Position numbers and translations under genes: made by a program. From Marinobacter sp. (lineage in GTDB: Bacteria > Pseudomonadota > Gammaproteobacteria > Pseudomonadales > Oleiphilaceae): 49,850 nucleotides of DNA. Each line of letters opens with the position of its first letter. Position 1 is the first letter of the stretch. This document shows positions 1 through 47,150 of the stretch, in pieces. The stretch is from positions 1 to 49,850 of the forward strand of contig JASBRL010000090.1 in assembly GCA_030149475.1 (NCBI GenBank). The letters run 5' to 3'. The notes under the pieces are model-generated. The model did no database searches, was not told the DNA's origin, and saw only the letters and a list, made by a program, of their open reading frames with translations.

Positions 1-377
<377 letters not shown>

Positions 378-25434: not shown

Positions 25435-25611
25435 ATGTATATTTATCGCCTGGTCTTTCTGCTGGTACTGGCCATCTATATCTTCTCACCCAACATTCTC
25501 GACTGGTGGGTGACACTCGGCAACGCCTGGTATTCACCCTACCTGATCTGGGCCGGTCTGATTGCCATGGGTTTCTGGCTTGAATGGCGGCGGGACCCCA
25601 ATGAGTTTTAG
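25435..25611 (+). CDS. cbrX: Small membrane protein in the CbrX position upstream of cbrA
   Basis: A 58-residue protein with two hydrophobic helices (about 4-18 and 36-50) ending LEWRRDPNEF. Its end overlaps the cbrA start by 11 bases, so cbrA translation is probably coupled to it. Pseudomonas has a small ORF, cbrX, in the same place; the symbol is assigned by position only. Starts at 25411, 25423 and 25429 are also in frame; 25435 gives the most natural N-terminus (MYIYRLVFLLVL). Confidence 0.7.
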   Translation: MYIYRLVFLLVLAIYIFSPNILDWWVTLGNAWYSPYLIWAGLIAMGFWLEWRRDPNEF

Positions 25612-28564
25612 CCTGCCCTCGCTTTTGCTGGTCAGCCTGCTCTATCTGTCATTCCTGTTCGCCCTGGCCCACATGACCGATCGCGGAATGATCCCACACC
25701 AGTGGGTCCGGAGCCCGCTCGTCTATGTTCTCAGCCTTGGTGTTTACGCCGGCATATGGGCCATTTACGGGGCCGTCGGGATGGCCGCCGACTCCGGCTT
25801 CGGGTTCCTCGCTTACTACCTCGGCATCAGCGGCGCTTTTCTGCTGGCCCCGGTGTTGCTCAACCCGATCATGCGTATCGGACGCGCCTATCAGTTGACC
25901 TCACTGGCCGATGTGTTCGCCTTCCGTTACCGCAGTCAGTGGGCGGGCACTCTGGTAACCCTGTGCTCGGGGGCGGCTATCCTGTCGTTGCTGAGCATGC
26001 AGATCAAGGCCGTTTCAACGTCAGTCACCCTGCTGTCACCGGGCGCATCCCCGCAACTGGCCAGCGTGCTGTTCAGCCTGACCGTCGTGCTGTTTGCCGT
26101 TCTGTTCGGCGCCCGCCGCGACCAGGGTTCGGACAGCCACCATGGTCTGGTGCTGGCCGTGGCCTTCGACTCCTTGATCAAGCTGGGCGCCATTCTGTTG
26201 CTTGGCGCCATCACTCTGATCAGCGTCTTCGGCGGCCTGGATGGTCTGGACGCCTGGCTGAAGGGTTACTCCGGCCAGATCGGTGCGCTGGAGGCGAGGA
26301 TCAATGATGGAAGCTGGCGGGCACTGATGCTGATGTCGTTCGCCGGCGCGCTGGTACTGCCTCACATGTACCACATGACGTTCAGCGAAAACCCCAGCCC
26401 CCGTGCGATGGCTCGGGCCAGTTGGGGGCTGCCCCTGTATCTGCTGCTGCTGGCCCTGCCGGTCCCGGTCATTCTCTGGGGCGGTATCCGGCTTGCGGTG
26501 GACATGCCACCCAACTTTTTTGCCCTCGGCGTTGCCATGGCTCTGGACAGGCCCGCCCTCACCCTGCTGATGTACATCGCCGGTATGTCCGCCGCCAGCG
26601 GCCTGATGATCGTCAGCACCCTGGCCCTGGCGGGAATGGTGCTCAACCACGTGGTGCTGCCCCTGCGCACACCCCGGGATCAGGACGACATCTACCGCTG
26701 GTTGCGCTGGGTCAAACGGGTGCTCATCGCGATCATCATTTTCGCCGCTCTGCTGTTTCACGAGGTCATCGGCAAACACCTGGACCTGTCGATTCTCGGC
26801 GCCCTGTCCCTCACCGGCCTGCTGCAACTACTCCCTGGCGCCCTGGGTATCATCTACTGGCCCGAAGGCAACCGGCGGGGACTGATTGCCGGGCTTGTCA
26901 CCGGCACCCTGACCTGGACCCTGACGCTGGTATTACCTTTCTCCCACGCCGGCCATCTGCCAGTATGGCTGCAATTACCGCTCGCCCCCGACAACGCCAA
27001 CTGGTACATCTTTACGTTTGTCAGTCTGGCGCTGAATGTGGTTGTTTTTACCGTCGTGTCCGTGGTGAGCGTCACCACTAAAGATGAAAGCAGTGCCGCC
27101 CAGGCCTGCTCCATGGGTGCCTTGTCTCGCCCCCAGCGCAGGGAACTGCTGGCGACGTCTTCCGACGACTTTATCAAACAGTTGGCCGAGCCACTGGGCA
27201 AAAACGTCAGCCACCGGGAGATCGAGCGCGCCCGGAACCAGCTCAAGCTGCCCGCGGTAGAATACCGACCCTATCAGCTCAGACGCCTGCGGGATCAGGT
27301 AGAAATCAATCTGTCCGGCCTGCTCGGCCCCTCAGTCGCCCGGGACATGGTCAAACGCCATCTGGGCTACAAACCCATGGCCGGCAGTGGCACCGCCCAG
27401 GACATCCAGTATGTGGAACGGGCACTCGGTGACTACCAGAATCAACTCACTGGCCTGGCCGGAGAGCTGGACAATCTCCGTCGCCATTATCGCCAGACGC
27501 TTCAGAACCTGCCAATCCCGGCCTGCTCCGTGGGCGATGACGGCGAAATCCTGATGTGGAATCACGCCATGGAAGATCTCACCCGCATTGCCGCGGAGGA
27601 TGTGGTCGGCGCCCGCCTGCTGGCACTGCCCGAGCACTGGCACCTCCTGCTGGACGACTTTGTCAACGGCCCGGACCTGCACCGCTACAAACACCGCCTG
27701 GATCTTGGCGGGCGCCCCCACTGGCTCAACCTGCACAAGTCCACGCTCAGCGGGCCGGAACATTCGGAAGGTGGCAGTATTATCCTGGTGGAGGATCAGA
27801 CTGAAACCCGCCTGCTGGAAGATGAGCTGATGCACAGTGAACGTCTGGCCTCTGTGGGCCGACTGGCTGCCGGAGTGGCCCATGAAGTAGGCAATCCCGT
27901 TACCGGTATCTCGTCGCTGGCCCAGAATCTCAAGCTGGAAACCGATGACGTCAACATTCTCGATACCGCCAATCAGATCCAGCAGCAGACCCGTCGCATT
28001 TCCACCATTCTGCAATCACTGATGAATTTTGCCCGGACCGGTAACCACGCCCAGGCCAATCGCTATGAGCCGGTCATCATCCGGCGGTGCGTGGATGAAT
28101 CAATCAACCTGCTGTCACTGAGCGACAAGGGGCGGAATATTCTCTATCAGAACGAGTGCCCGGAAAGTCTGACCGTCCTGGGCGATGAACAGCGACTGGT
28201 GCAGGTCTTCGTCAATTTACTGGCAAACGCCCGGGACGCCTCACCGGATGGCGGGCGTATCGTGATCGGTGGAAACCGGGAAGGGTACTCCGCTATTATC
28301 GAGGTTCTCGATGCGGGCGGCGGAATACCGGAAGATCAACTGGACCATATTTTCGAGCCGTTCTACACCACCAAGGAAGCCAATCAGGGCACCGGCCTCG
28401 GGTTGTCACTGGTCTACAGCATCATTGAAGAACATTACGGAAATATCCAGGTCGAGAGCCCGGCCGGCCCTCAGTCAGAACAGGGAACCTGCGTACGCCT
28501 GAGACTTCCGGCCTACGAAGCCGACACCGAGATGGCCGGCGTCAACCCGAACCAAAGGTTTTAA
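25601..28564 (+). CDS. cbrA: CbrA-type sensor histidine kinase fused to an SLC5-like transporter
   Basis: Sensor of the CbrAB system controlling carbon and nitrogen use. The 987-residue protein starts at ATG 25601 (MSFSLPSLLLV). Residues about 1-500 are a polytopic sodium:solute symporter (SLC5) domain; then a STAC-like linker, a PAS domain (about 630-740, PIPACSVGDDGEILMWNHAM), the phospho-acceptor box with H761 (AGVAHEVGNPVTGIS) and an ATPase domain with N box VNLLANARDASPDGG and G boxes DAGGGIPEDQLDHIFEPFYT and GTGLGLSLVYS. cbrB follows seven bases later. Confidence 0.93.
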   Translation: MSFSLPSLLLVSLLYLSFLFALAHMTDRGMIPHQWVRSPLVYVLSLGVYAGIWAIYGAVGMAADSGFGFLAYYLGISGAFLLAPVLLNPIMRIGRAYQLTSLADVFAFRYRSQWAGTLVTLCSGAAILSLLSMQIKAVSTSVTLLSPGASPQLASVLFSLTVVLFAVLFGARRDQGSDSHHGLVLAVAFDSLIKLGAILLLGAITLISVFGGLDGLDAWLKGYSGQIGALEARINDGSWRALMLMSFAGALVLPHMYHMTFSENPSPRAMARASWGLPLYLLLLALPVPVILWGGIRLAVDMPPNFFALGVAMALDRPALTLLMYIAGMSAASGLMIVSTLALAGMVLNHVVLPLRTPRDQDDIYRWLRWVKRVLIAIIIFAALLFHEVIGKHLDLSILGALSLTGLLQLLPGALGIIYWPEGNRRGLIAGLVTGTLTWTLTLVLPFSHAGHLPVWLQLPLAPDNANWYIFTFVSLALNVVVFTVVSVVSVTTKDESSAAQACSMGALSRPQRRELLATSSDDFIKQLAEPLGKNVSHREIERARNQLKLPAVEYRPYQLRRLRDQVEINLSGLLGPSVARDMVKRHLGYKPMAGSGTAQDIQYVERALGDYQNQLTGLAGELDNLRRHYRQTLQNLPIPACSVGDDGEILMWNHAMEDLTRIAAEDVVGARLLALPEHWHLLLDDFVNGPDLHRYKHRLDLGGRPHWLNLHKSTLSGPEHSEGGSIILVEDQTETRLLEDELMHSERLASVGRLAAGVAHEVGNPVTGISSLAQNLKLETDDVNILDTANQIQQQTRRISTILQSLMNFARTGNHAQANRYEPVIIRRCVDESINLLSLSDKGRNILYQNECPESLTVLGDEQRLVQVFVNLLANARDASPDGGRIVIGGNREGYSAIIEVLDAGGGIPEDQLDHIFEPFYTTKEANQGTGLGLSLVYSIIEEHYGNIQVESPAGPQSEQGTCVRLRLPAYEADTEMAGVNPNQRF

Positions 28565-28571
28565 CATCACG

Positions 28572-29972
28572 ATGCGTCGCATACTTATTGTAGAAGACGA
28601 GGAAATCATTCGCTCTGCCCTGCGCAAATTACTGCAGCATGCCGGCTATGACGTGTCTGATGCGGGAGCTGTGGATGCCGCGGAGCGCCAGTTCGATCTA
28701 CAACAGTTTGACCTGATCATCTCTGACCTGCGGCTACCGGGGGCACCCGGCACCGAACTGATCAGCCGGGCACCCGGAACGCCTGTGCTGATCATGACCA
28801 GCTACGCCAGTCTGCGCTCCGCCGTTGACTCGATGAAACTTGGCGCCGTCGAATACATCGCCAAACCATTCGACCATGATGAAATGCTCGCAGCGGTGGA
28901 AACCATCCTGACCCGGAATATGGTCCAGGACGACAACCTCACTGCCGACAGCAGCCAGGCCGCCGACCAGTCCGGTGATCCGGCCAGGATCATGTTTGGC
29001 CAGTGTGATGCCATGCAGCAAGTGTTCACCCTTATCCGCAAAGTCGCCCCCACAGAAACCACGGTGCTGGTGCAGGGAGAGTCAGGCACCGGCAAGGAAC
29101 TGGCCGCCCGCGCGCTTCACCTGATGAGCCCGCGCGCGCGCAATCCCTTGATTTCGGTCAACTGCGCGGCCATTCCGGAAAGCCTGATCGAATCGGAACT
29201 GTTCGGACATGAAAAAGGCTCGTTCACCGGCGCGGTCTCTGCCCGAACCGGGCTGATCGAGGCGGCCGATGGCGGCAGTCTGTTTCTTGACGAAATCGGT
29301 GAGTTGCCGGCTGAGGCCCAGGCAAGGTTGCTAAGAGTCCTGCAGGAAGGCGAAATCCGCAAGGTGGGCTCCACGCAGAGCCGCAAGGTGAATGTCCGGA
29401 TGATTGCCGCCACCCACCGGAACCTCAAGGCAATGACCCGCACCGGCGAGTTCCGGGAAGACCTCTACTATCGCCTCAACGTCATGCAGATTCGCATCCC
29501 TCCACTGCGGGAACGGGATACGGACATTCTGGGACTGGCCCGGCGATTCCTGGAACGCCAGAGTAAAAACATGGGCAAACCGGGGCTGAAACTAAGCCCG
29601 GAATCCATGCAGGCGCTTAAGCGCCACCGCTGGCCCGGGAACGTAAGGGAGCTCGAAAACGCCATCGAACGGGCGACCATCCTCGCAGACGACGACGTCA
29701 TTTCCCCCGGCCTGCTTGACCTGGACAGCAACGGAGGTGACTTCAGCATCCCGGAAGGCCTGGTGGAAGGCGGCAACCAACCTACCCAGATGCACGATAA
29801 CGAGACCGGCAGCGACCTTTCCCTGGAAGACTACTTCCAGCATTTCGTGCTGGAAAATCAGGACCGTATGAGTGAAACGGAACTGGCCCAGAAGCTCGGT
29901 ATCAGTCGAAAGTCTCTGTGGGAACGGCGACAGCGGCTGGGCATTCCACGCAAGAAAAGCTCGGGCACATAA
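28572..29972 (+). CDS. cbrB: CbrB-type sigma-54-dependent response regulator
   Basis: An NtrC-family activator, 466 residues. The receiver domain has the phospho-aspartate D52 (LIISDLRLPG). The AAA+ domain has Walker A GESGTGKE, the sigma-54 contact loop as GSFTGA (the usual form is GAFTGA), and Walker B SLFLDEIGEL. A Fis-type helix-turn-helix ends the protein (ELAQKLGISRKSLWERRQRL). Its known role in Pseudomonas is to switch on the sRNA crcZ; sites fitting that lie just downstream (29997-30145). Confidence 0.94.
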   Translation: MRRILIVEDEEIIRSALRKLLQHAGYDVSDAGAVDAAERQFDLQQFDLIISDLRLPGAPGTELISRAPGTPVLIMTSYASLRSAVDSMKLGAVEYIAKPFDHDEMLAAVETILTRNMVQDDNLTADSSQAADQSGDPARIMFGQCDAMQQVFTLIRKVAPTETTVLVQGESGTGKELAARALHLMSPRARNPLISVNCAAIPESLIESELFGHEKGSFTGAVSARTGLIEAADGGSLFLDEIGELPAEAQARLLRVLQEGEIRKVGSTQSRKVNVRMIAATHRNLKAMTRTGEFREDLYYRLNVMQIRIPPLRERDTDILGLARRFLERQSKNMGKPGLKLSPESMQALKRHRWPGNVRELENAIERATILADDDVISPGLLDLDSNGGDFSIPEGLVEGGNQPTQMHDNETGSDLSLEDYFQHFVLENQDRMSETELAQKLGISRKSLWERRQRLGIPRKKSSGT

Positions 29973-29996
29973 GGAAACAATGAACCCCACATCAAC

Positions 29997-30057
29997 TGTT
30001 ACCCAGTGTTACCTCAAGGAACACGCTCCACATATTTACTGAGACCTGGGTAACACT
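29997..30057 (+). promoter_or_regulatory. CbrB-type upstream activating sites
   Basis: TGTTAC occurs at 29997-30002 and again at 30007-30012, and its complement GTAACA at 30050-30055. The third site reads CTGGGTAACACT (30046-30057) and is the mirror of the AGTGTTACC and GTTACCCAG around the first two. Such TGTTAC repeats resemble reported CbrB targets. They sit 75-135 bases upstream of a sigma-54 promoter, a usual enhancer distance. Confidence 0.65.
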
Positions 30058-30129
30058 TTGAACTTAAAAGCACTTCTCGATTCAGGTTAACTTTAATTAA
30101 GCGACTGTTAATAAACACTTTTTAAAACC

Positions 30130-30144
30130 TGGCACAGGCAGTGC
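30130..30144 (+). promoter_or_regulatory. Sigma-54 promoter of the CrcZ-like sRNA
   Basis: TGGCACAGGCAGTGC gives GG (30131-30132), ten bases, GC (30143-30144): the -24/-12 signature of sigma-54 (consensus TGGCAC-N5-TTGCA). The predicted start is near 30155. Confidence 0.75.
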
Positions 30145-30154
30145 ACTCTTAAGG

Positions 30155-30516
30155 GCGCACAACAACAAAAACAATGTGGCAATGCAGCGACAAAACAAAA
30201 ACAAAAAGCTGCGGGAAAACGTTCAGAAACAAAAACAACAATTGAACGAGAGCGAACTGAGTGTTTTGGGTGCTGAGCTTTTTAGGGGTGCCTTGGCGAG
30301 TGCAAGTTGTAGATGTAGAGAAGAATCGTCTTCCAGACGCCGCTATATTTACTCGATCTTGTGCTTGTTGATTACCACTCTCTGTATTCAAAGCGTTCCG
30401 CTTGCGTGATTCACCTCGTGAAGAGGTACAAAAGGGCATGGACCCTGGTAATAACAAAAACAACGCAGATCGTGTACTATTCCCGGGCGGGTTCGTGAAA
30501 GCGAATCCGCCTTTTG
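30155..30516 (+). ncRNA. crcZ: CrcZ-like regulatory sRNA with CA motifs
   Basis: No plausible gene fills the 693 bases between cbrB and pcnB. A sigma-54 promoter precedes and a rho-independent terminator ends a ~360-nt transcript. It is rich in AAnAAnAA-type CA motifs: 30161-30175, 30191-30206, 30226-30241 and 30451-30465. In Pseudomonas CrcZ lies between cbrB and pcnB, depends on CbrB and sigma-54, and uses such motifs to titrate Hfq/Crc, relieving carbon catabolite repression. Position, promoter and motifs all agree; sequence identity with CrcZ was not tested. Confidence 0.8.
30486..30515 (+). terminator. Rho-independent terminator of the CrcZ-like sRNA
   Basis: GGCGGGTTCG (30486-30495), loop TGAAAG, CGAATCCGCC (30502-30511): ten pairs with one G-U, followed by TTTT (30512-30515) and further T's. 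Confidence 0.8.
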
Positions 30517-30529
30517 ATTTTCTGCCTCA

Positions 30530-30558
30530 TTGCCCTTCAAGGAAGCGCTGAATAATTC
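30530..30558 (+). promoter_or_regulatory. Possible pcnB promoter
   Basis: TTGCCC (30530-30535), a 17-base spacer and TAATTC (30553-30558), downstream of the sRNA terminator. The spacer holds one copy of the GGAAGCGCTGA repeat. Consensus match is weak to moderate. Confidence 0.3.
30539..30555. repeat. Short dispersed repeat, copy 1 (GGAAGCGCTGA core)
   Basis: AAGGAAGCGCTGAATAA. The same core recurs twice more, at 32494-32510 and 32558-32574, all in intergenic DNA. Confidence 0.45.
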
Positions 30559-30665
30559 GGTCGCCCTTCTGACACCCACCGCCAGACCGGCTGAATATTC
30601 CCGGCATGGGCAAATCGCCTGCAAACCGTTAAACTCTCTCCTTTTCCCATCTCAGATACGGATTC

Positions 30666-32006
30666 ATGCTGAAAAAACTGATGTCATTCATGCCCGGTCG
30701 TGGCAAGAAAACAGCCCCCGTCTACACCCGAGAGATCATTCCTCGCGATCAGCACACAGTCTCTCGCTCCATTATCAGCGAGCCGGCAAAAAAGGTGTTG
30801 AACCGCCTCAACCATGCAGGCTTCGAGGCATATCTGGTCGGCGGTGGCGTGCGGGACATCCTCATTGGCGAACGTCCGAAGGACTTTGACATCGCCACCA
30901 ATGCCACCCCCGAGGAGGTGCACGACCTGTTTCGCAACTCGCGCCTGATCGGGCGGCGGTTCCGCATTGTTCATGTGCTGTTTGGCCGGGAGGTCATCGA
31001 GGTCACCACCTTCCGGGGCAACGCGGCCAATACCGATGATGACGACGATGACCGCCGGACCAGCGAACACGGATTGCTGCTGCGGGATAACGTGTACGGC
31101 TCGATGGAAGAGGATGCCCTGCGCCGTGATTTTACAGTCAATGCGCTCTACTACTGCATCCGCGATTTCACGGTGATTGATTTCGCCCGCGGCATCGAAG
31201 ATCTGCACAATCGCCAGTTGCGACTGATCGGTGACCCGGAAACCCGCTACCGGGAAGACCCGGTGAGAATGTTGCGTGCGATTCGCTTTGCCGCCAAGCT
31301 GGACTTCGACATCGCACCGGACACCGAGGCCCCTATCGTCGAGCTTGCGCCCCTGCTTACGCACATCCCCCCGGCCCGACTGTTCGAAGAAATACTGAAG
31401 CTGTTTTCAGCCGGTTACGGCGAAGCAACATACGACCGGTTGCGACGCTACGACCTGCTCGCCCCGCTGTTTCCGGAAACCGCCCGCGCTCTGGACTCCG
31501 GCGAACCGGACCAGTTGATTCGGCAGGCACTGCAGAACACGGACCGGCGTATCCAGCAGGGCAAATCCGTAACCCCCTATTTCCTCTACGCCGCCATGCT
31601 GTGGCCGGCCCTGCAGGCTGAGTGGCGCAAACGTCAGGACAATGGCGAGCCAATCCAGCCCGCGCTGCACCAGGCCATTGCAAAAGTCATCGGCCGGCAG
31701 GTTCAGGCCACCGCCATCCCCAAGCGATTCTCCGGGCCGATGAAGGAAATCTGGGAGTTGCAGATGCGGCTGCCGCGACGCAACGGCAAACGAGCCTTTC
31801 AGACCATGGATCACCCCCGTTTTCGCGCGGCCTATGATTTCCTGCTGGTCCGGGAACTGGCTGGCGAGGTCGAGCCAGGGCTGGGGCAGTGGTGGACAGA
31901 GTTTCAGGAGGCAGATGAACGGGATCGCGAAAAAATGCTCAGCCAGCTGGGCAGTGATGGTCCGCGCAAACGCCGGCGCCGCCGCAAGCCCGCCAACCGC
32001 GAGTAA
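30666..32006 (+). CDS. pcnB: Poly(A) polymerase I
   Basis: Adds 3' poly(A) tails to RNAs and promotes their decay. The 446-residue protein has the class II nucleotidyltransferase head (YLVGGGVRDILIGERPKDFD, with the DxD metal pair in DFDIA), RRFRIVHVLFGREVIEVTTF, the LRRDFTVNALYY and DPVRMLRAIRFAAKLDF blocks, and a basic tail (RKRRRRRKPANRE). The N-terminal basic extension and length fit PcnB rather than CCA-adding enzymes. folK starts three bases after it. Confidence 0.95.
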   Translation: MLKKLMSFMPGRGKKTAPVYTREIIPRDQHTVSRSIISEPAKKVLNRLNHAGFEAYLVGGGVRDILIGERPKDFDIATNATPEEVHDLFRNSRLIGRRFRIVHVLFGREVIEVTTFRGNAANTDDDDDDRRTSEHGLLLRDNVYGSMEEDALRRDFTVNALYYCIRDFTVIDFARGIEDLHNRQLRLIGDPETRYREDPVRMLRAIRFAAKLDFDIAPDTEAPIVELAPLLTHIPPARLFEEILKLFSAGYGEATYDRLRRYDLLAPLFPETARALDSGEPDQLIRQALQNTDRRIQQGKSVTPYFLYAAMLWPALQAEWRKRQDNGEPIQPALHQAIAKVIGRQVQATAIPKRFSGPMKEIWELQMRLPRRNGKRAFQTMDHPRFRAAYDFLLVRELAGEVEPGLGQWWTEFQEADERDREKMLSQLGSDGPRKRRRRRKPANRE

Positions 32007-32009
32007 ACC

Positions 32010-32495
32010 ATGACCCGGGTGAGGGCTTACGTCGGACTCGGCAGCAACCTGGCAGATCCGTTGAATCAGCTTGCCAGCGCAATCGTTGAACTGGCCCGCA
32101 TGCCCGCGACGACACTGATCGCACAGTCGCCATTTTACCGCAGCCTACCCGTCGGGCCACCGGACCAGCCAGACTTCATTAACGGCGCTGTCTGCCTGCA
32201 GACCGGACTGGACGCCCACAGGCTACTGGACCAGTTACAGGCGATTGAACGGCTACACCAGCGGCGCAGAGACAGTCGGTGGGGCCCACGCACCCTGGAC
32301 CTGGACCTCTTGCTGTTCGGAGACCAGACAATCAGTGACGCCAGACTGACGGTACCCCACCGGGAGCTGGTTAACCGCGACTTCGTGCTTCAGCCGTTGC
32401 TGGATCTTGAACCATCGCTGGTATTGCCCGACAGTCGCGCTCTGGCCGAACTGCGACGGTGCTGCCCGGACAATCAACTGCAACGGCTGAGCTAA
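32010..32495 (+). CDS. folK: HPPK (7,8-dihydro-6-hydroxymethylpterin pyrophosphokinase), copy 1
   Basis: Transfers pyrophosphate to hydroxymethyl-dihydropterin in folate synthesis. The 161-residue protein has YVGLGSNLADPLNQL, DQPDFINGAVCLQT, RRRDSRWGPRTLDLDLLLFG (the HPPK signature) and VPHRELVNRDFVLQPLLDL. It lies between pcnB and panB as in Pseudomonas. A second folK-type gene is at 35987-36514. Confidence 0.95.
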   Translation: MTRVRAYVGLGSNLADPLNQLASAIVELARMPATTLIAQSPFYRSLPVGPPDQPDFINGAVCLQTGLDAHRLLDQLQAIERLHQRRRDSRWGPRTLDLDLLLFGDQTISDARLTVPHRELVNRDFVLQPLLDLEPSLVLPDSRALAELRRCCPDNQLQRLS

Positions 32496-35974: not shown

Positions 35975-35990
35975 TGCCCCTTAGCACTAG
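35971..35990. terminator. Hairpin built from the stop codons of convergent pgi and folK copy 2
   Basis: CTAGTGC (35971-35977), loop CCCTTA, GCACTAG (35984-35990): a perfect 7-base stem. The pgi stop TAG is 35972-35974 and the folK stop is CTA at 35987-35989, read on the other strand. No T-run, so termination would have to be weak or structural. Confidence 0.4.
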
Positions 35991-36514
35991 CGCGGGGGCC
36001 GCGGGGAAATGACCCGGCCCTGCCAGCTAAAGGGCACCGGCCAGAGCTTCTGCTGCCGATCATAGTGCTGCCAGAGCTCAGCGTAGGTCTTACCGGCCAG
36101 CGGATGAACGGCCGTCGGGGCAATCTCGGCCAGCGGCAGCAGCACAAAGGCGTTTTTCAGGATCTCACCCCGTGGCAACTCAATACCCTCAACATCGCCG
36201 GTGCGATCGTCGTAGGTCAGAATATCCAGGTCCAGAGTCCGCGCACTGAACCTGGGCAGGTCACGGCGACGACCGTTATCCGCTTCCAGGCGCTTGAAGA
36301 ACCGGGACAGCTCCGCGACGGGCACCCCGGTGGTTACCGCAACCACCAGATTCAGGAAATTATCCCCGTCAAACCCCACCGCTTCGCTTTCATACACCGA
36401 TGAAATATCGAGGGCTCCAAAGTGTTCCGCCAGAGCATCCAGCGCAGCGGTGATATGGCGCTCACGCTCGACATTGCTTCCAATACTGATGTAAACCGTC
36501 GCCCGATCACTCAT
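35987..36514 (-). CDS. folK: HPPK, copy 2
   Basis: A second HPPK, 175 residues, with YISIGSNVERERHITAALDA, DNFLNLVVAVTT, the signature FSARTLDLDILTYDDRTGDV and LKNAFVLLPLAEIAP. It is only distantly similar to copy 1 at 32010. Its start overlaps the folB stop by four bases, so it pairs functionally with folB, which makes the HPPK substrate. Confidence 0.93.
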   Translation of the reverse strand: MSDRATVYISIGSNVERERHITAALDALAEHFGALDISSVYESEAVGFDGDNFLNLVVAVTTGVPVAELSRFFKRLEADNGRRRDLPRFSARTLDLDILTYDDRTGDVEGIELPRGEILKNAFVLLPLAEIAPTAVHPLAGKTYAELWQHYDRQQKLWPVPFSWQGRVISPRPPR

Positions 36515-36867
36515 GGTCGCTGCCCTCGTTCAATGCAAACGCCCACCGCCCGGGCCTGCGGAACGGCACCGGGTTTTCGAATCACCAGCCGCAGCCAGCT
36601 GATGCCGAACTGATGCCGCAGTTGCGTTGACAGCCCTTCGGCGGCGGCTTCCAGCAGTTGAGGCTGATTGTGGGCAAAAAACTCGGCCACGGCCTCACTG
36701 ACGCGGGCATAGTCCAGGGCATTGCCGACGTCGTCCGATTGCCCGGGGGCCCGGTTGTCCCAGGCCATCTCCAGGTCAATCAACAGCGTTTGTGAAATCT
36801 CACGTTCCCAGTCGTAGACACCAATGACAGCGTCTACCGTCAGCCCTTCGATCAGTACACTGTCCAT
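36511..36867 (-). CDS. folB: Dihydroneopterin aldolase
   Basis: Cleaves dihydroneopterin to hydroxymethyl-dihydropterin, the step before HPPK. From ATG 36867 (MDSVLIEGLTVDAVIGVYDW) it has 118 residues. The conserved LDYARVSEAV, LLEAAAEGL and RKPGAVPQARAVGV blocks are present, with the lysine of the last region. The frame opens eight codons further up, but the family starts at MDSV-like sequence. Divergent from plsY. Confidence 0.93.
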   Translation of the reverse strand: MDSVLIEGLTVDAVIGVYDWEREISQTLLIDLEMAWDNRAPGQSDDVGNALDYARVSEAVAEFFAHNQPQLLEAAAEGLSTQLRHQFGISWLRLVIRKPGAVPQARAVGVCIERGQRP

Positions 36868-37020
36868 CACCGCTGATGCCTCCGCTCCCAACCACAGGGA
36901 ACCTGCTTGTTGATTGTCTGCTTTACGTCAACCCGTTACCGTGCTGAACTGCACTCCGTTATCGTAGCGCCGGGCGATTTTCGCATACATTGCCCACGCA
37001 AGTCTCTGCCCGGGGAAACC

Positions 37021-45806: not shown

Positions 45807-47150
45807 ATGCATCTGGTCCTGATCCTGATAGCGCTGATCGTGTTTATTGTACTCGCGACCAGCAAGCTTAAACTTAACCCATTTATCACACTTCTCCTGG
45901 CCTCATTCCTGGCCGCGTTTGCATTTGGCCTACCGTTAGATTCAATTGAGCAAACCATCAGCACCGGGTTCGGGAATATTCTTGGCTACATCGGTCTGGT
46001 AATCGTGCTGGGCACGATTATCGGTGTCATCCTTGAGCGGACAGGCGCCGCGATTGTCATGGCGGAAAGTATTATCAAGCTGCTGGGCGATCGCTTCCCG
46101 AAGCTGACCATGTCGCTGGTTGGGTTCATTGTTTCCATACCGGTATTCTGCGATTCGGGTTTTGTTATCCTGAATAGCCTCAAACGCTCGATGGCCCGAA
46201 CCCTCGCCGTATCGCCCGTGGCCATGACTGTGGCCCTGTCTACAGGGTTGTTTGCCACACATACGCTGGTGCCGCCGACACCGGGCCCGATTGCCGCCGC
46301 GGGCAATCTGGGTCTTGAAGACAGCTTGGGTTTGGTCATTGCCGTTGGTTTCGTATTTGCCGTCATCGCCGCTCTTGCGGGGTTGTTCTGGGCGCACCGC
46401 TGCCGGAACCTGGAAAGCAAGGAATTGGAACTGGCCGAGGAAGCTTTCGAGGAAGCCAAGGAACACTATGGTGAGCTGCCGACCGCGTGGGCAGCATTCG
46501 CTCCTATTTTCGTGCCGATTCTGCTTATATGCTTTGGGACCGTCGCAAATTATCCGACCGAACCTCTGGGTAGTGGCGCTCTCTATGAAACACTGAACTT
46601 CCTGGGCAAGCCGCTGAATGCCTTGATGATCGGCCTGGGGTTTGCCCTGATCCTGATGCAGGGTGATAAAAAGCTTGGGGATTTTGCCCGTCACACCCAA
46701 AAGGGGCTGGAGGTCTCAGCGCCCATTATCCTGATCACCGGTGCCGGCGGTGCCTTCGGTGCCGTCCTGGCTCAGACGCCTTTGGGCGACTACCTGGGTG
46801 ACACTCTCTCTACGCTGGGGTTGAGTGTCATCATGCCTTTCCTTGTCGCTGCGGCTTTGAAATCAGCGCAAGGCTCTTCCACGGTTGCCCTAGTTACAAC
46901 ATCGGCTCTGGTTGCACCATTGATGCCTCAGCTTGGGCTGGACTCTGAACTGGGGCGTGTTCTGGCAGTGATGGCTATTGGTGCTGGCGCAATGACGGTG
47001 TCGCACGCCAACGACAGTTATTTCTGGGTTGTTTCCCAGTTCAGCAAGATGGACGTGGCGACCGCTTACAAATCCCACACCACTGCAACGCTGATCATGG
47101 GGCTGGTCACCATTGTGTGCGTCTGGCTGGCCTCAAAGGTAGTGATCTGA
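45807..47150 (+). CDS. GntP-family gluconate/glycerate permease
   Basis: A 447-residue inner-membrane protein of the GntP family with about 12 helices. It begins MHLVLILIALIVFIVLATSK, includes LGTIIGVILERTGAAIVMAE, GFIVSIPVFCDSGFVIL and THTLVPPTPGPIAAAG, and ends WLASKVVI. AAGGAGA precedes the ATG. It ends one base before the glycerate kinase, so it probably imports D-glycerate (a GntP member) rather than gluconate; that is inferred from context. Confidence 0.9.
   Translation: MHLVLILIALIVFIVLATSKLKLNPFITLLLASFLAAFAFGLPLDSIEQTISTGFGNILGYIGLVIVLGTIIGVILERTGAAIVMAESIIKLLGDRFPKLTMSLVGFIVSIPVFCDSGFVILNSLKRSMARTLAVSPVAMTVALSTGLFATHTLVPPTPGPIAAAGNLGLEDSLGLVIAVGFVFAVIAALAGLFWAHRCRNLESKELELAEEAFEEAKEHYGELPTAWAAFAPIFVPILLICFGTVANYPTEPLGSGALYETLNFLGKPLNALMIGLGFALILMQGDKKLGDFARHTQKGLEVSAPIILITGAGGAFGAVLAQTPLGDYLGDTLSTLGLSVIMPFLVAAALKSAQGSSTVALVTTSALVAPLMPQLGLDSELGRVLAVMAIGAGAMTVSHANDSYFWVVSQFSKMDVATAYKSHTTATLIMGLVTIVCVWLASKVVI

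Follow-up and report, generated by a model that had tools for sequence, protein, structure and literature searches.

A likely CrcZ-type decoy RNA gene between cbrB and pcnB in Marinobacter, and its layout across the Pseudomonadales

The cbrB-pcnB locus

The window (the whole stretch of DNA analysed, 49,850 nt) carries the gene order cbrA-cbrB-gap-pcnB, and the gap, read directly from the cbrB stop (29972) to the pcnB ATG (30666), comprises 693 nt (29973-30665). A candidate RNA gene lies in this gap, directly 3' of cbrB. The source is a Marinobacter assembly of 3.36 Mb that is 84% complete; NCBI taxonomy places Marinobacter in the Marinobacteraceae, Pseudomonadales. The features of the locus are the following.

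25562..28564, + strand: cbrA, fusion of an SLC5-type transporter and a histidine kinase (start codon as listed)
28572..29972, + strand: cbrB, sigma-54 response regulator comprising a receiver, an AAA+ part and a DNA-binding C-terminal part
29997..30002, + strand: TGTTAC, CbrB-type forward subsite, 133 bp upstream of TGGC
30007..30012, + strand: TGTTAC, CbrB-type forward subsite, 123 bp upstream of TGGC, Pseudomonas-like
30050..30055, + strand: GTAACA, CbrB-type reverse subsite, 80 bp upstream of TGGC, the position of GTAACN in Pseudomonas loci
30130..30145, + strand: sigma-54 promoter TGGCACAGGCAGTGCA, with TGGC at 30130 and GG-N10-GC at 30131-30144; predicted start about 30156
30156..30521, + strand: predicted CrcZ-type small RNA (Rfam CrcZ match 30159-30530; conserved covarying fold)
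30161..30174, + strand: CA motif 1, close to the 5' end and left unpaired by the consensus fold
30184..30212, + strand: hairpin GCAGC (30184-30188)/GCTGC (30208-30212), helix 2, with CA motif 2 (30194-30207) in the loop
30220..30248, + strand: hairpin CGTTC (30220-30224)/GAACG (30244-30248), helix 3, with CA motif 3 (30228-30241) in the loop
30251..30270, + strand: core helix, 5' arm, pairing with 30387-30406
30387..30406, + strand: core helix, 3' arm, pairing with 30251-30270
30450..30463, + strand: CA motif 4, a AANAANAA run
30485..30512, + strand: rho-independent terminator stem of 12 pairs (helix 12 of the fold), then a T-rich tail
30666..32006, + strand: pcnB, the flanking gene, encoding poly(A) polymerase I (TIGR01942 above cut-off)

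The listed 1000-aa CbrA matched its counterparts over approximately the full length, at 70-80% in Marinobacter loci and 50-52% in Pseudomonas loci. PAS, HisKA and HATPase domains were recognized by Pfam, and the transporter part had no Pfam match. CbrB contained receiver, sigma-54-activation and lid domains, and its C-terminal end closely resembled that of Pseudomonas CbrB. Hfq, Crc and RpoN were all encoded in the same assembly. The best match of the Crc frame among solved structures was Crc itself (4jg3, 232 bits), followed by 2myi, deposited as exodeoxyribonuclease III (228 bits), and then by a structure at 143 bits; by eye, the gene sits between rph-like and pyrE-like frames. Elsewhere in the window, the 5' part of a 16S rRNA gene occupies positions 1-377 (- strand), truncated by the window's end, and inspection by eye revealed two HPPK-like genes, a folK-like gene at 32010-32495 and a second frame at 35987-36891 (- strand) next to a FolB-like frame.

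The first-pass annotation had reported three TGTTAC/GTAACA sites and a GG-N10-GC promoter in the gap, and all were present, the sites at 29997, 30007 and 30050 and the promoter at 30131-30144. The start of the RNA had been placed at 30155; the promoter stood, and the start was corrected to about 30156 by taking C30144 as -12. A tighter sigma-54 pattern had no match in the gap, where the -12 part reads GTGC, and the IHF consensus was matched there only with two mismatches. The four A-rich CA-motif runs claimed for the RNA were recovered as well (AANAANAA runs starting at 30161, 30194, 30228 and 30450), several of them unpaired and two in predicted hairpin loops, as was the rho-independent terminator, a 12-pair stem at 30485-30512 followed by T-rich DNA.

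How far such elements arise by chance was assessed with 5,000 dinucleotide shuffles of the gap. At least three CbrB-type hexamers occurred in 22 of them, at least four AANAANAA runs in 60 and a sigma-54-like box in 490 (weak evidence alone), and hexamers, box and A-rich runs jointly in none. Terminator-like sites numbered two in the region against 0.9 expected in shuffles, again weak alone. Thus, the elements in the gap are genuine and, taken together, exceed what chance would give, which neither the promoter box nor the terminator would do alone.

A coding gene in the gap was rejected, in agreement with the initial description of the gap as gene free. Frames of at least 80 aa in the gap were a 104-aa antisense frame and a + frame running into pcnB, and the longest + frame inside the predicted RNA shifted in position and length between homologues, ranging from 17 to 113 aa in 61 Marinobacter-clade sequences and lying in differing places in the 14 inspected. 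These longest + frames had a median of 60 aa, compared with 38 in shuffles, and shared no common place. Antisense frames on the same 380-nt stretch measured 17-91 aa; the 104-aa antisense frame of the window extends past that stretch.

Relation to CrcZ and conservation of the fold

At gathering thresholds, Rfam listed no family in the gap. With permissive settings, RF01675 (CrcZ) matched 30159-30530 over the whole model (1-398 of 398) with an E value of 4.9e-9, and the match began 3 nt downstream of the predicted start. A covariance search with the CrcZ model had been proposed as a check and came out divided, with a significant full-length match on the one hand and a score of 40.1 bits, below the gathering cut-off of 95 bits, on the other. 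This was the sole RF01675 match at an E value of ≤1e-3 in the 84% complete assembly, and 14 control genomes had no match. The L20 leader (RF00558) was considered and rejected, as it scored 23.2 bits against a cut-off of 58.7 (E = 0.045) and the neighbouring gene is pcnB. In a reciprocal test with a sequence profile built on 32 Marinobacter-clade transcripts, the gene was recovered at E values of <1e-3 from 34 of 39 outgroup loci (Pseudomonas-type and the tool-numbered families f2 and f34). Judged by sequence, the predicted RNA is a CrcZ-type relative; it is not filed as a curated RF01675 member because its score of 40.1 bits lies under the 95-bit cut-off.

To compare promoter geometry, we collected 111 loci, namely, 80 found through CbrA in named genomes, the window locus, and 30 chosen by RF01675 match (L082-L111), which for that reason do not count as independent evidence. 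Both cbrB and pcnB were present in 100 of these, which formed the first set; 11 were dropped, as one or both genes were missing on the stretch. The set comprised 61 Marinobacter-clade gaps (57 distinct, window included; Marinobacter, Halospina and a metagenome-assembled genome labelled Halomonadaceae are among them), 32 Pseudomonas-type gaps (22 from named Pseudomonas and 10 of family f20), 2 of f2 and 5 of f34. From its high RF01675 scores, we infer that f20 is the Pseudomonas family.

A sigma-54 box stood in the corresponding place in all 100 gaps. GTAACN was found at -78 to -82 from TGGC in 61/61 Marinobacter-clade (57 distinct) and 32/32 Pseudomonas-type loci; the reverse site of f2 and f34 loci was at -89. 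A forward site at -120 to -126 was present in 32/32 Pseudomonas-type and 10/61 Marinobacter-clade loci. The usual forward position in the Marinobacter clade was -132 to -134, and the 133 bp of the site at 29997 was its commonest distance. The window carries forward sites at both -133 and -123 and, with the latter and the reverse site at -80, displays the Pseudomonas geometry upstream of its sigma-54 promoter. In P. putida, changing the R2 subsite (GTAACg) is described as having hurt crcZ most drastically (PMC6296734).

The consensus fold of 32 Marinobacter-clade sequences comprised 73 pairs, of which 27 had both partners changed in one or more sequences, and none of 500 column shuffles reached any of the five measures. 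Of its cells, 96.7% were paired, compared with 37.6 to 44.6% when the arms were slid, a comparison that favours the fold, as it was predicted from the same sequences. In helix 3 (CGTTC/GAACG), three of six pairs were changed on both sides in some sequences, with U-A replaced by C-G in 7 sequences at one pair and in 10 at another. The window RNA itself had a folding z score of -2.54, and 2 of 100 shuffles folded as well.

A 20-position core helix was common to the Marinobacter clade and Pseudomonas. In a cross-clade alignment of 27 sequences from four groups (Marinobacter clade, Pseudomonas-type, f2 and f34), 85.4% of its cells were paired (33.5 to 55.4% when slid) and 24 cells were changed on both sides, which 0 of 500 shuffles equalled. 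Two of the five covariation measures fell within the shuffles in this cross-clade comparison, namely, pairs changed on both sides (32/500) and further pair types (94/500). Five pairs of the core helix could be made out by eye in the structure line of the Rfam CrcZ family. The idea of a conserved layout with a different sequence needs refinement, as the sequence was not wholly different and these two mutually pairing blocks were conserved with Pseudomonas.

The core raises the question of whether the RNA is chiefly a base-pairing sRNA or a structured scaffold that acts through this conserved part, with Hfq binding at the CA motifs serving for loading only. Its arms were indeed among the most conserved parts besides the CA motifs. 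However, they pair with each other across clades, so their conservation needs no target; further families (see below) have the promoter and the CA motifs without a core recognizable by pattern or profile, and the titration role of CrcZ in P. aeruginosa is experimental (PMC4063720). We regard a base-pairing or scaffold function as very improbable as the main role and retain a CrcZ-type decoy as the preferred reading.

Distribution across the order

Among 293 genomes of the order, 60 matched RF01675 at an E value of ≤1e-3, 14 of them above the cut-off (strict filters), and all 12 genomes of the same genus that were listed, its own included, were among the matches. CbrA was matched in 209 of the 293 genomes at 1e-120. 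A Crc query matched 224 at 1e-40, some of which may be Crc relatives rather than Crc. One f20 genome (G170) has CbrA and was absent from the RF01675 matches. Seven weak CrcZ matches (G239, G259, G063, G192, G030, G241 and G134), checked by hand, lay 1.66 to 1.73 kb past the end of cbrA, which is the expected place of the gene.

We described the layout by a signature, consisting of a CbrB-type site 40 to 160 bp upstream of a sigma-54 box, an A-rich motif 20 to 65 nt downstream of the box, and at least two A-rich runs; the rule was fixed after the motif lists of the first 100 gaps and of the further loci had been inspected. The signature was present in 100/100 first-set gaps and occurred once in the 49,850-nt window. 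It was found in 4 of 5,900 shuffled gaps, 0 times on the opposite strand of the gaps and 0 times in 1.92 Mb of flanking sequence with both strands counted. These controls also speak to the possibility that the element is a relic or unexpressed, its motifs persisting by chance or through constraints on its neighbours. The individual motifs are short, as such a relic would allow, but compensatory changes run across 32 sequences, the spacing between CbrB-type site and sigma-54 box is narrow, and the signature is missing from the flanks, which together leave this explanation hardly credible next to that of a maintained RNA gene.

A further set of 60 regions 3' of cbrA was picked by hand among the matches listed; 26 families, with f1, f2, f20 and f34 excluded, contributed one to four regions each. 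The signature was found in 48 of these genomes and 20 of the families, and the distance from reverse site to TGGC peaked at 79-80 bp. It was missed in three f8 loci with no pcnB on the stretch (L190-L192), in two where the contig ends (L193 and L210) and in two with no such element (L204 and L221); the other five (L188, L234, L235, L236 and L238) had at least one site and A-rich runs and no sigma-54 box that passed the rule. Two tandem promoter-plus-decoy units were present in 9 of the 48 (L185, L194, L195, L196, L215, L230, L231, L239 and L240). The Marinobacter-clade profile found 0 of the 60 further loci, where the core was likewise unrecognizable by pattern, and hence kinship there rests on position, promoter and motifs only. 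The suggestion of a wider family held as a layout, since the signature recurs across the order.

In four f8 genomes (L165, L168, L169 and L170), cbrAB was unlinked and a decoy with CbrB-type sites still stood beside pcnB. By eye, an aspartic-protease-like frame precedes the decoy in L170.

A planned negative control failed in a telling way. It used 37 genomes of the order in which CbrA had no match at 1e-120; pcnB was present in 36, and 30 loci were returned. Upstream of pcnB, the full signature was found in 19 of the 30 loci and promoter plus A-rich runs in 22, and 18 of the 19 signature-bearing loci had a CbrB match upstream on their stretch. No CbrA match was obtained in the 1.5 kb upstream of cbrB in any of 12 loci (L291-L302: six of f26, two of f13, two of f15, one of f41 and one of f36), in which dksA and gluQ precede cbrB. 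A CbrA-type kinase below the threshold may be encoded elsewhere in these genomes. Pfam found no receiver domain in one f26 CbrB, whereas the CbrB of the f36 locus retains one, and the phosphorylation-pocket residues of the receiver looked altered by eye in f26, f15 and f13. Whether f26 might be Acinetobacter was also considered; its Hfq frames measure 88 to 93 aa (six genomes), whereas A. baylyi has a large Hfq according to the title of a work cited in PMC5295007, and the identification was rejected.

In four other f36 genomes (G036, G130, G176 and G257), cbrB was not found upstream of pcnB on the stretch. Three of these (G130, G176 and G257) had no exact CbrB-type site and kept the sigma-54 box and 7 to 9 A-rich runs, and G036 had one forward site 67 bp upstream of the box. 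The best CbrB matches in the three of the four that were searched reached 45-47% and were located elsewhere. This pattern fits with the hexamers being the sites of CbrB.

The steady company of pcnB is what would be expected if the element were mainly a regulated 5' leader of that gene, i.e., a CbrB-driven transcript in which partial read-through of the terminator would tune poly(A) polymerase, with the A-rich motifs acting in cis. In the 100 first-set loci and in most further regions, the element precedes pcnB in the same orientation; it also stands upstream of pcnB in CbrA-negative genomes, and in f8 it remains beside pcnB despite cbrAB being elsewhere. In the Marinobacter clade, however, a conserved terminator stem closes the RNA; about 150 nt separate the RNA end from pcnB, the tandem units would be odd for a leader, and crcZ of Pseudomonas is described as a regulatory-RNA gene of its own (PMC8871633). 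A pcnB leader is accordingly an unlikely main role, although less so than base pairing, and we favour a separate decoy RNA gene.

By our tally, 29 tool-numbered families show the layout: 20 of the further set's 26, the four of the first set (f1, f2, f20 and f34), f8, and f13, f15, f26 and f41. We think it probable, with some reserve, that CbrB plus a CA-motif decoy beside pcnB is an ancestral circuit of the whole order Pseudomonadales and not a speciality of the Pseudomonadaceae. The body of the decoy would have evolved fast around a fixed promoter geometry and A-rich motifs and would have been doubled in tandem in several families. The decoy would also have outlived cbrA, which is missing between gluQ and cbrB in genomes of five families, with the CbrB receiver decayed in at least one family and the decoy still carrying its CbrB-type sites; CbrB would be run there by an input other than CbrA.

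Proposed function and comparison with known systems

Taken together, we put the probability at close to nine in ten that the gap at 29973-30665 holds a conserved CrcZ-related sequence encoding an sRNA of about 365 nt, whose sigma-54 promoter CbrB would likely activate and whose A-rich motifs would titrate Hfq (with Crc). A functional CrcZ-type decoy RNA gene outside the Pseudomonadaceae is therefore likely. Transcription, dependence on CbrB, binding to Hfq and the lifting of carbon catabolite repression are here ascribed by homology with Pseudomonas. With a poor carbon supply, CbrA would phosphorylate CbrB, which would bind TGTTAC/GTAACA 80 to 133 bp upstream of the -24 box and drive RpoN-dependent transcription. 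The RNA would expose CA motifs near its 5' end and in hairpin loops and thereby occupy the distal face of Hfq, and catabolic and uptake mRNAs would be released from Hfq-Crc repression. In P. aeruginosa, CrcZ binds Hfq via A-rich motifs and titrates it, as reported from experiment (PMC4063720), the Hfq Y25D variant is described as defective in CrcZ binding (PMC4063720), and Hfq cross-links are reported at the CA repeats of CrcZ (PMC6890931). The Hfq encoded at L116 (1441-1692, - strand) has a phenylalanine at position 25 by eye, and the aromatic character is retained.

Candidate targets were sought by scanning 285,396 bases (20 stretches plus the window) for AANAAYAA at -30 to +6 of predicted starts. 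The motif was present at 3 of 215 starts, compared with 0.81 expected from mononucleotide shuffling, so that the evidence for a broad Hfq-Crc regulon was thin. The three genes encode a GntP-type permease, a TRAP solute-binding protein and a protein without a Pfam match; the first two would fit into a regulon for carbon uptake. A GntP-family permease of the window (45807-47150, + strand), with AANAAYAA about 30 nt upstream of its start codon, is a candidate Hfq-Crc target.

CbrAB is called exclusive to the Pseudomonadaceae in a 2018 study (PMC6296734) and in a 2022 review, which links it to crcZ synteny (PMC8871633). We found no report of CrcZ in Marinobacter, Oceanospirillales or Alcanivorax in the open-licence literature; a prior report elsewhere is possible. 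The accessible text of open-licence papers covering Marinobacter, catabolite repression, Crc and Hfq held nothing on CrcZ in Marinobacter, and for CbrB with Marinobacter or Halomonas, that literature offered a sea-water metatranscriptome whose accessible text names CbrAB transcripts. Specialists may be surprised by the spread of the pattern over the whole order, by the tandem copies and by the lineages that lack a kinase gene nearby. If the proposed reading is true, control of carbon use by RNA titration would likely be order-wide, with marine Marinobacter included. The 29 families would be natural variants for asking what CrcZ must contain, the lineages without a neighbouring kinase gene would be material for asking what drives CbrB, and Rfam would gain a wider CrcZ seed and a longer core helix.

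Decoy RNAs of the RsmY/RsmZ type work alike, as RNAs under two-component control that titrate a global RNA-binding repressor. They differ in the protein (RsmA/CsrA), the motif (GGA) and the regulator, and no homology is implied. In A. baumannii, sRNA99 is called reminiscent of CrcZ, has three potential A-rich motifs and is mostly in first position in Hfq chimeras (PMC12802169).

The closest known system is CrcZ of Pseudomonas and Azotobacter (RF01675; siblings CrcY and CrcX), whose A-rich motifs are located on loops in A. vinelandii (PMC5429807). The place and design that the first-pass annotation had likened to CrcZ matched in gene order (cbrA-cbrB-gap-pcnB), CbrB-type sites, sigma-54 promoter, CA motifs and terminator. 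The two share the position between cbrB and pcnB, CbrB-type sites at -123 and -80 from TGGC, a sigma-54 box about 30 bp upstream of the first CA motif, CA motifs in loops, a core helix and a terminator. Unlike CrcZ, the window RNA has another middle domain and another terminator, and its promoter carries an extra forward site at -133. It has four CA runs, compared with six in most Pseudomonas-type loci (28/32), and its assembly has one CrcZ match, compared with two in several Pseudomonas-family genomes.
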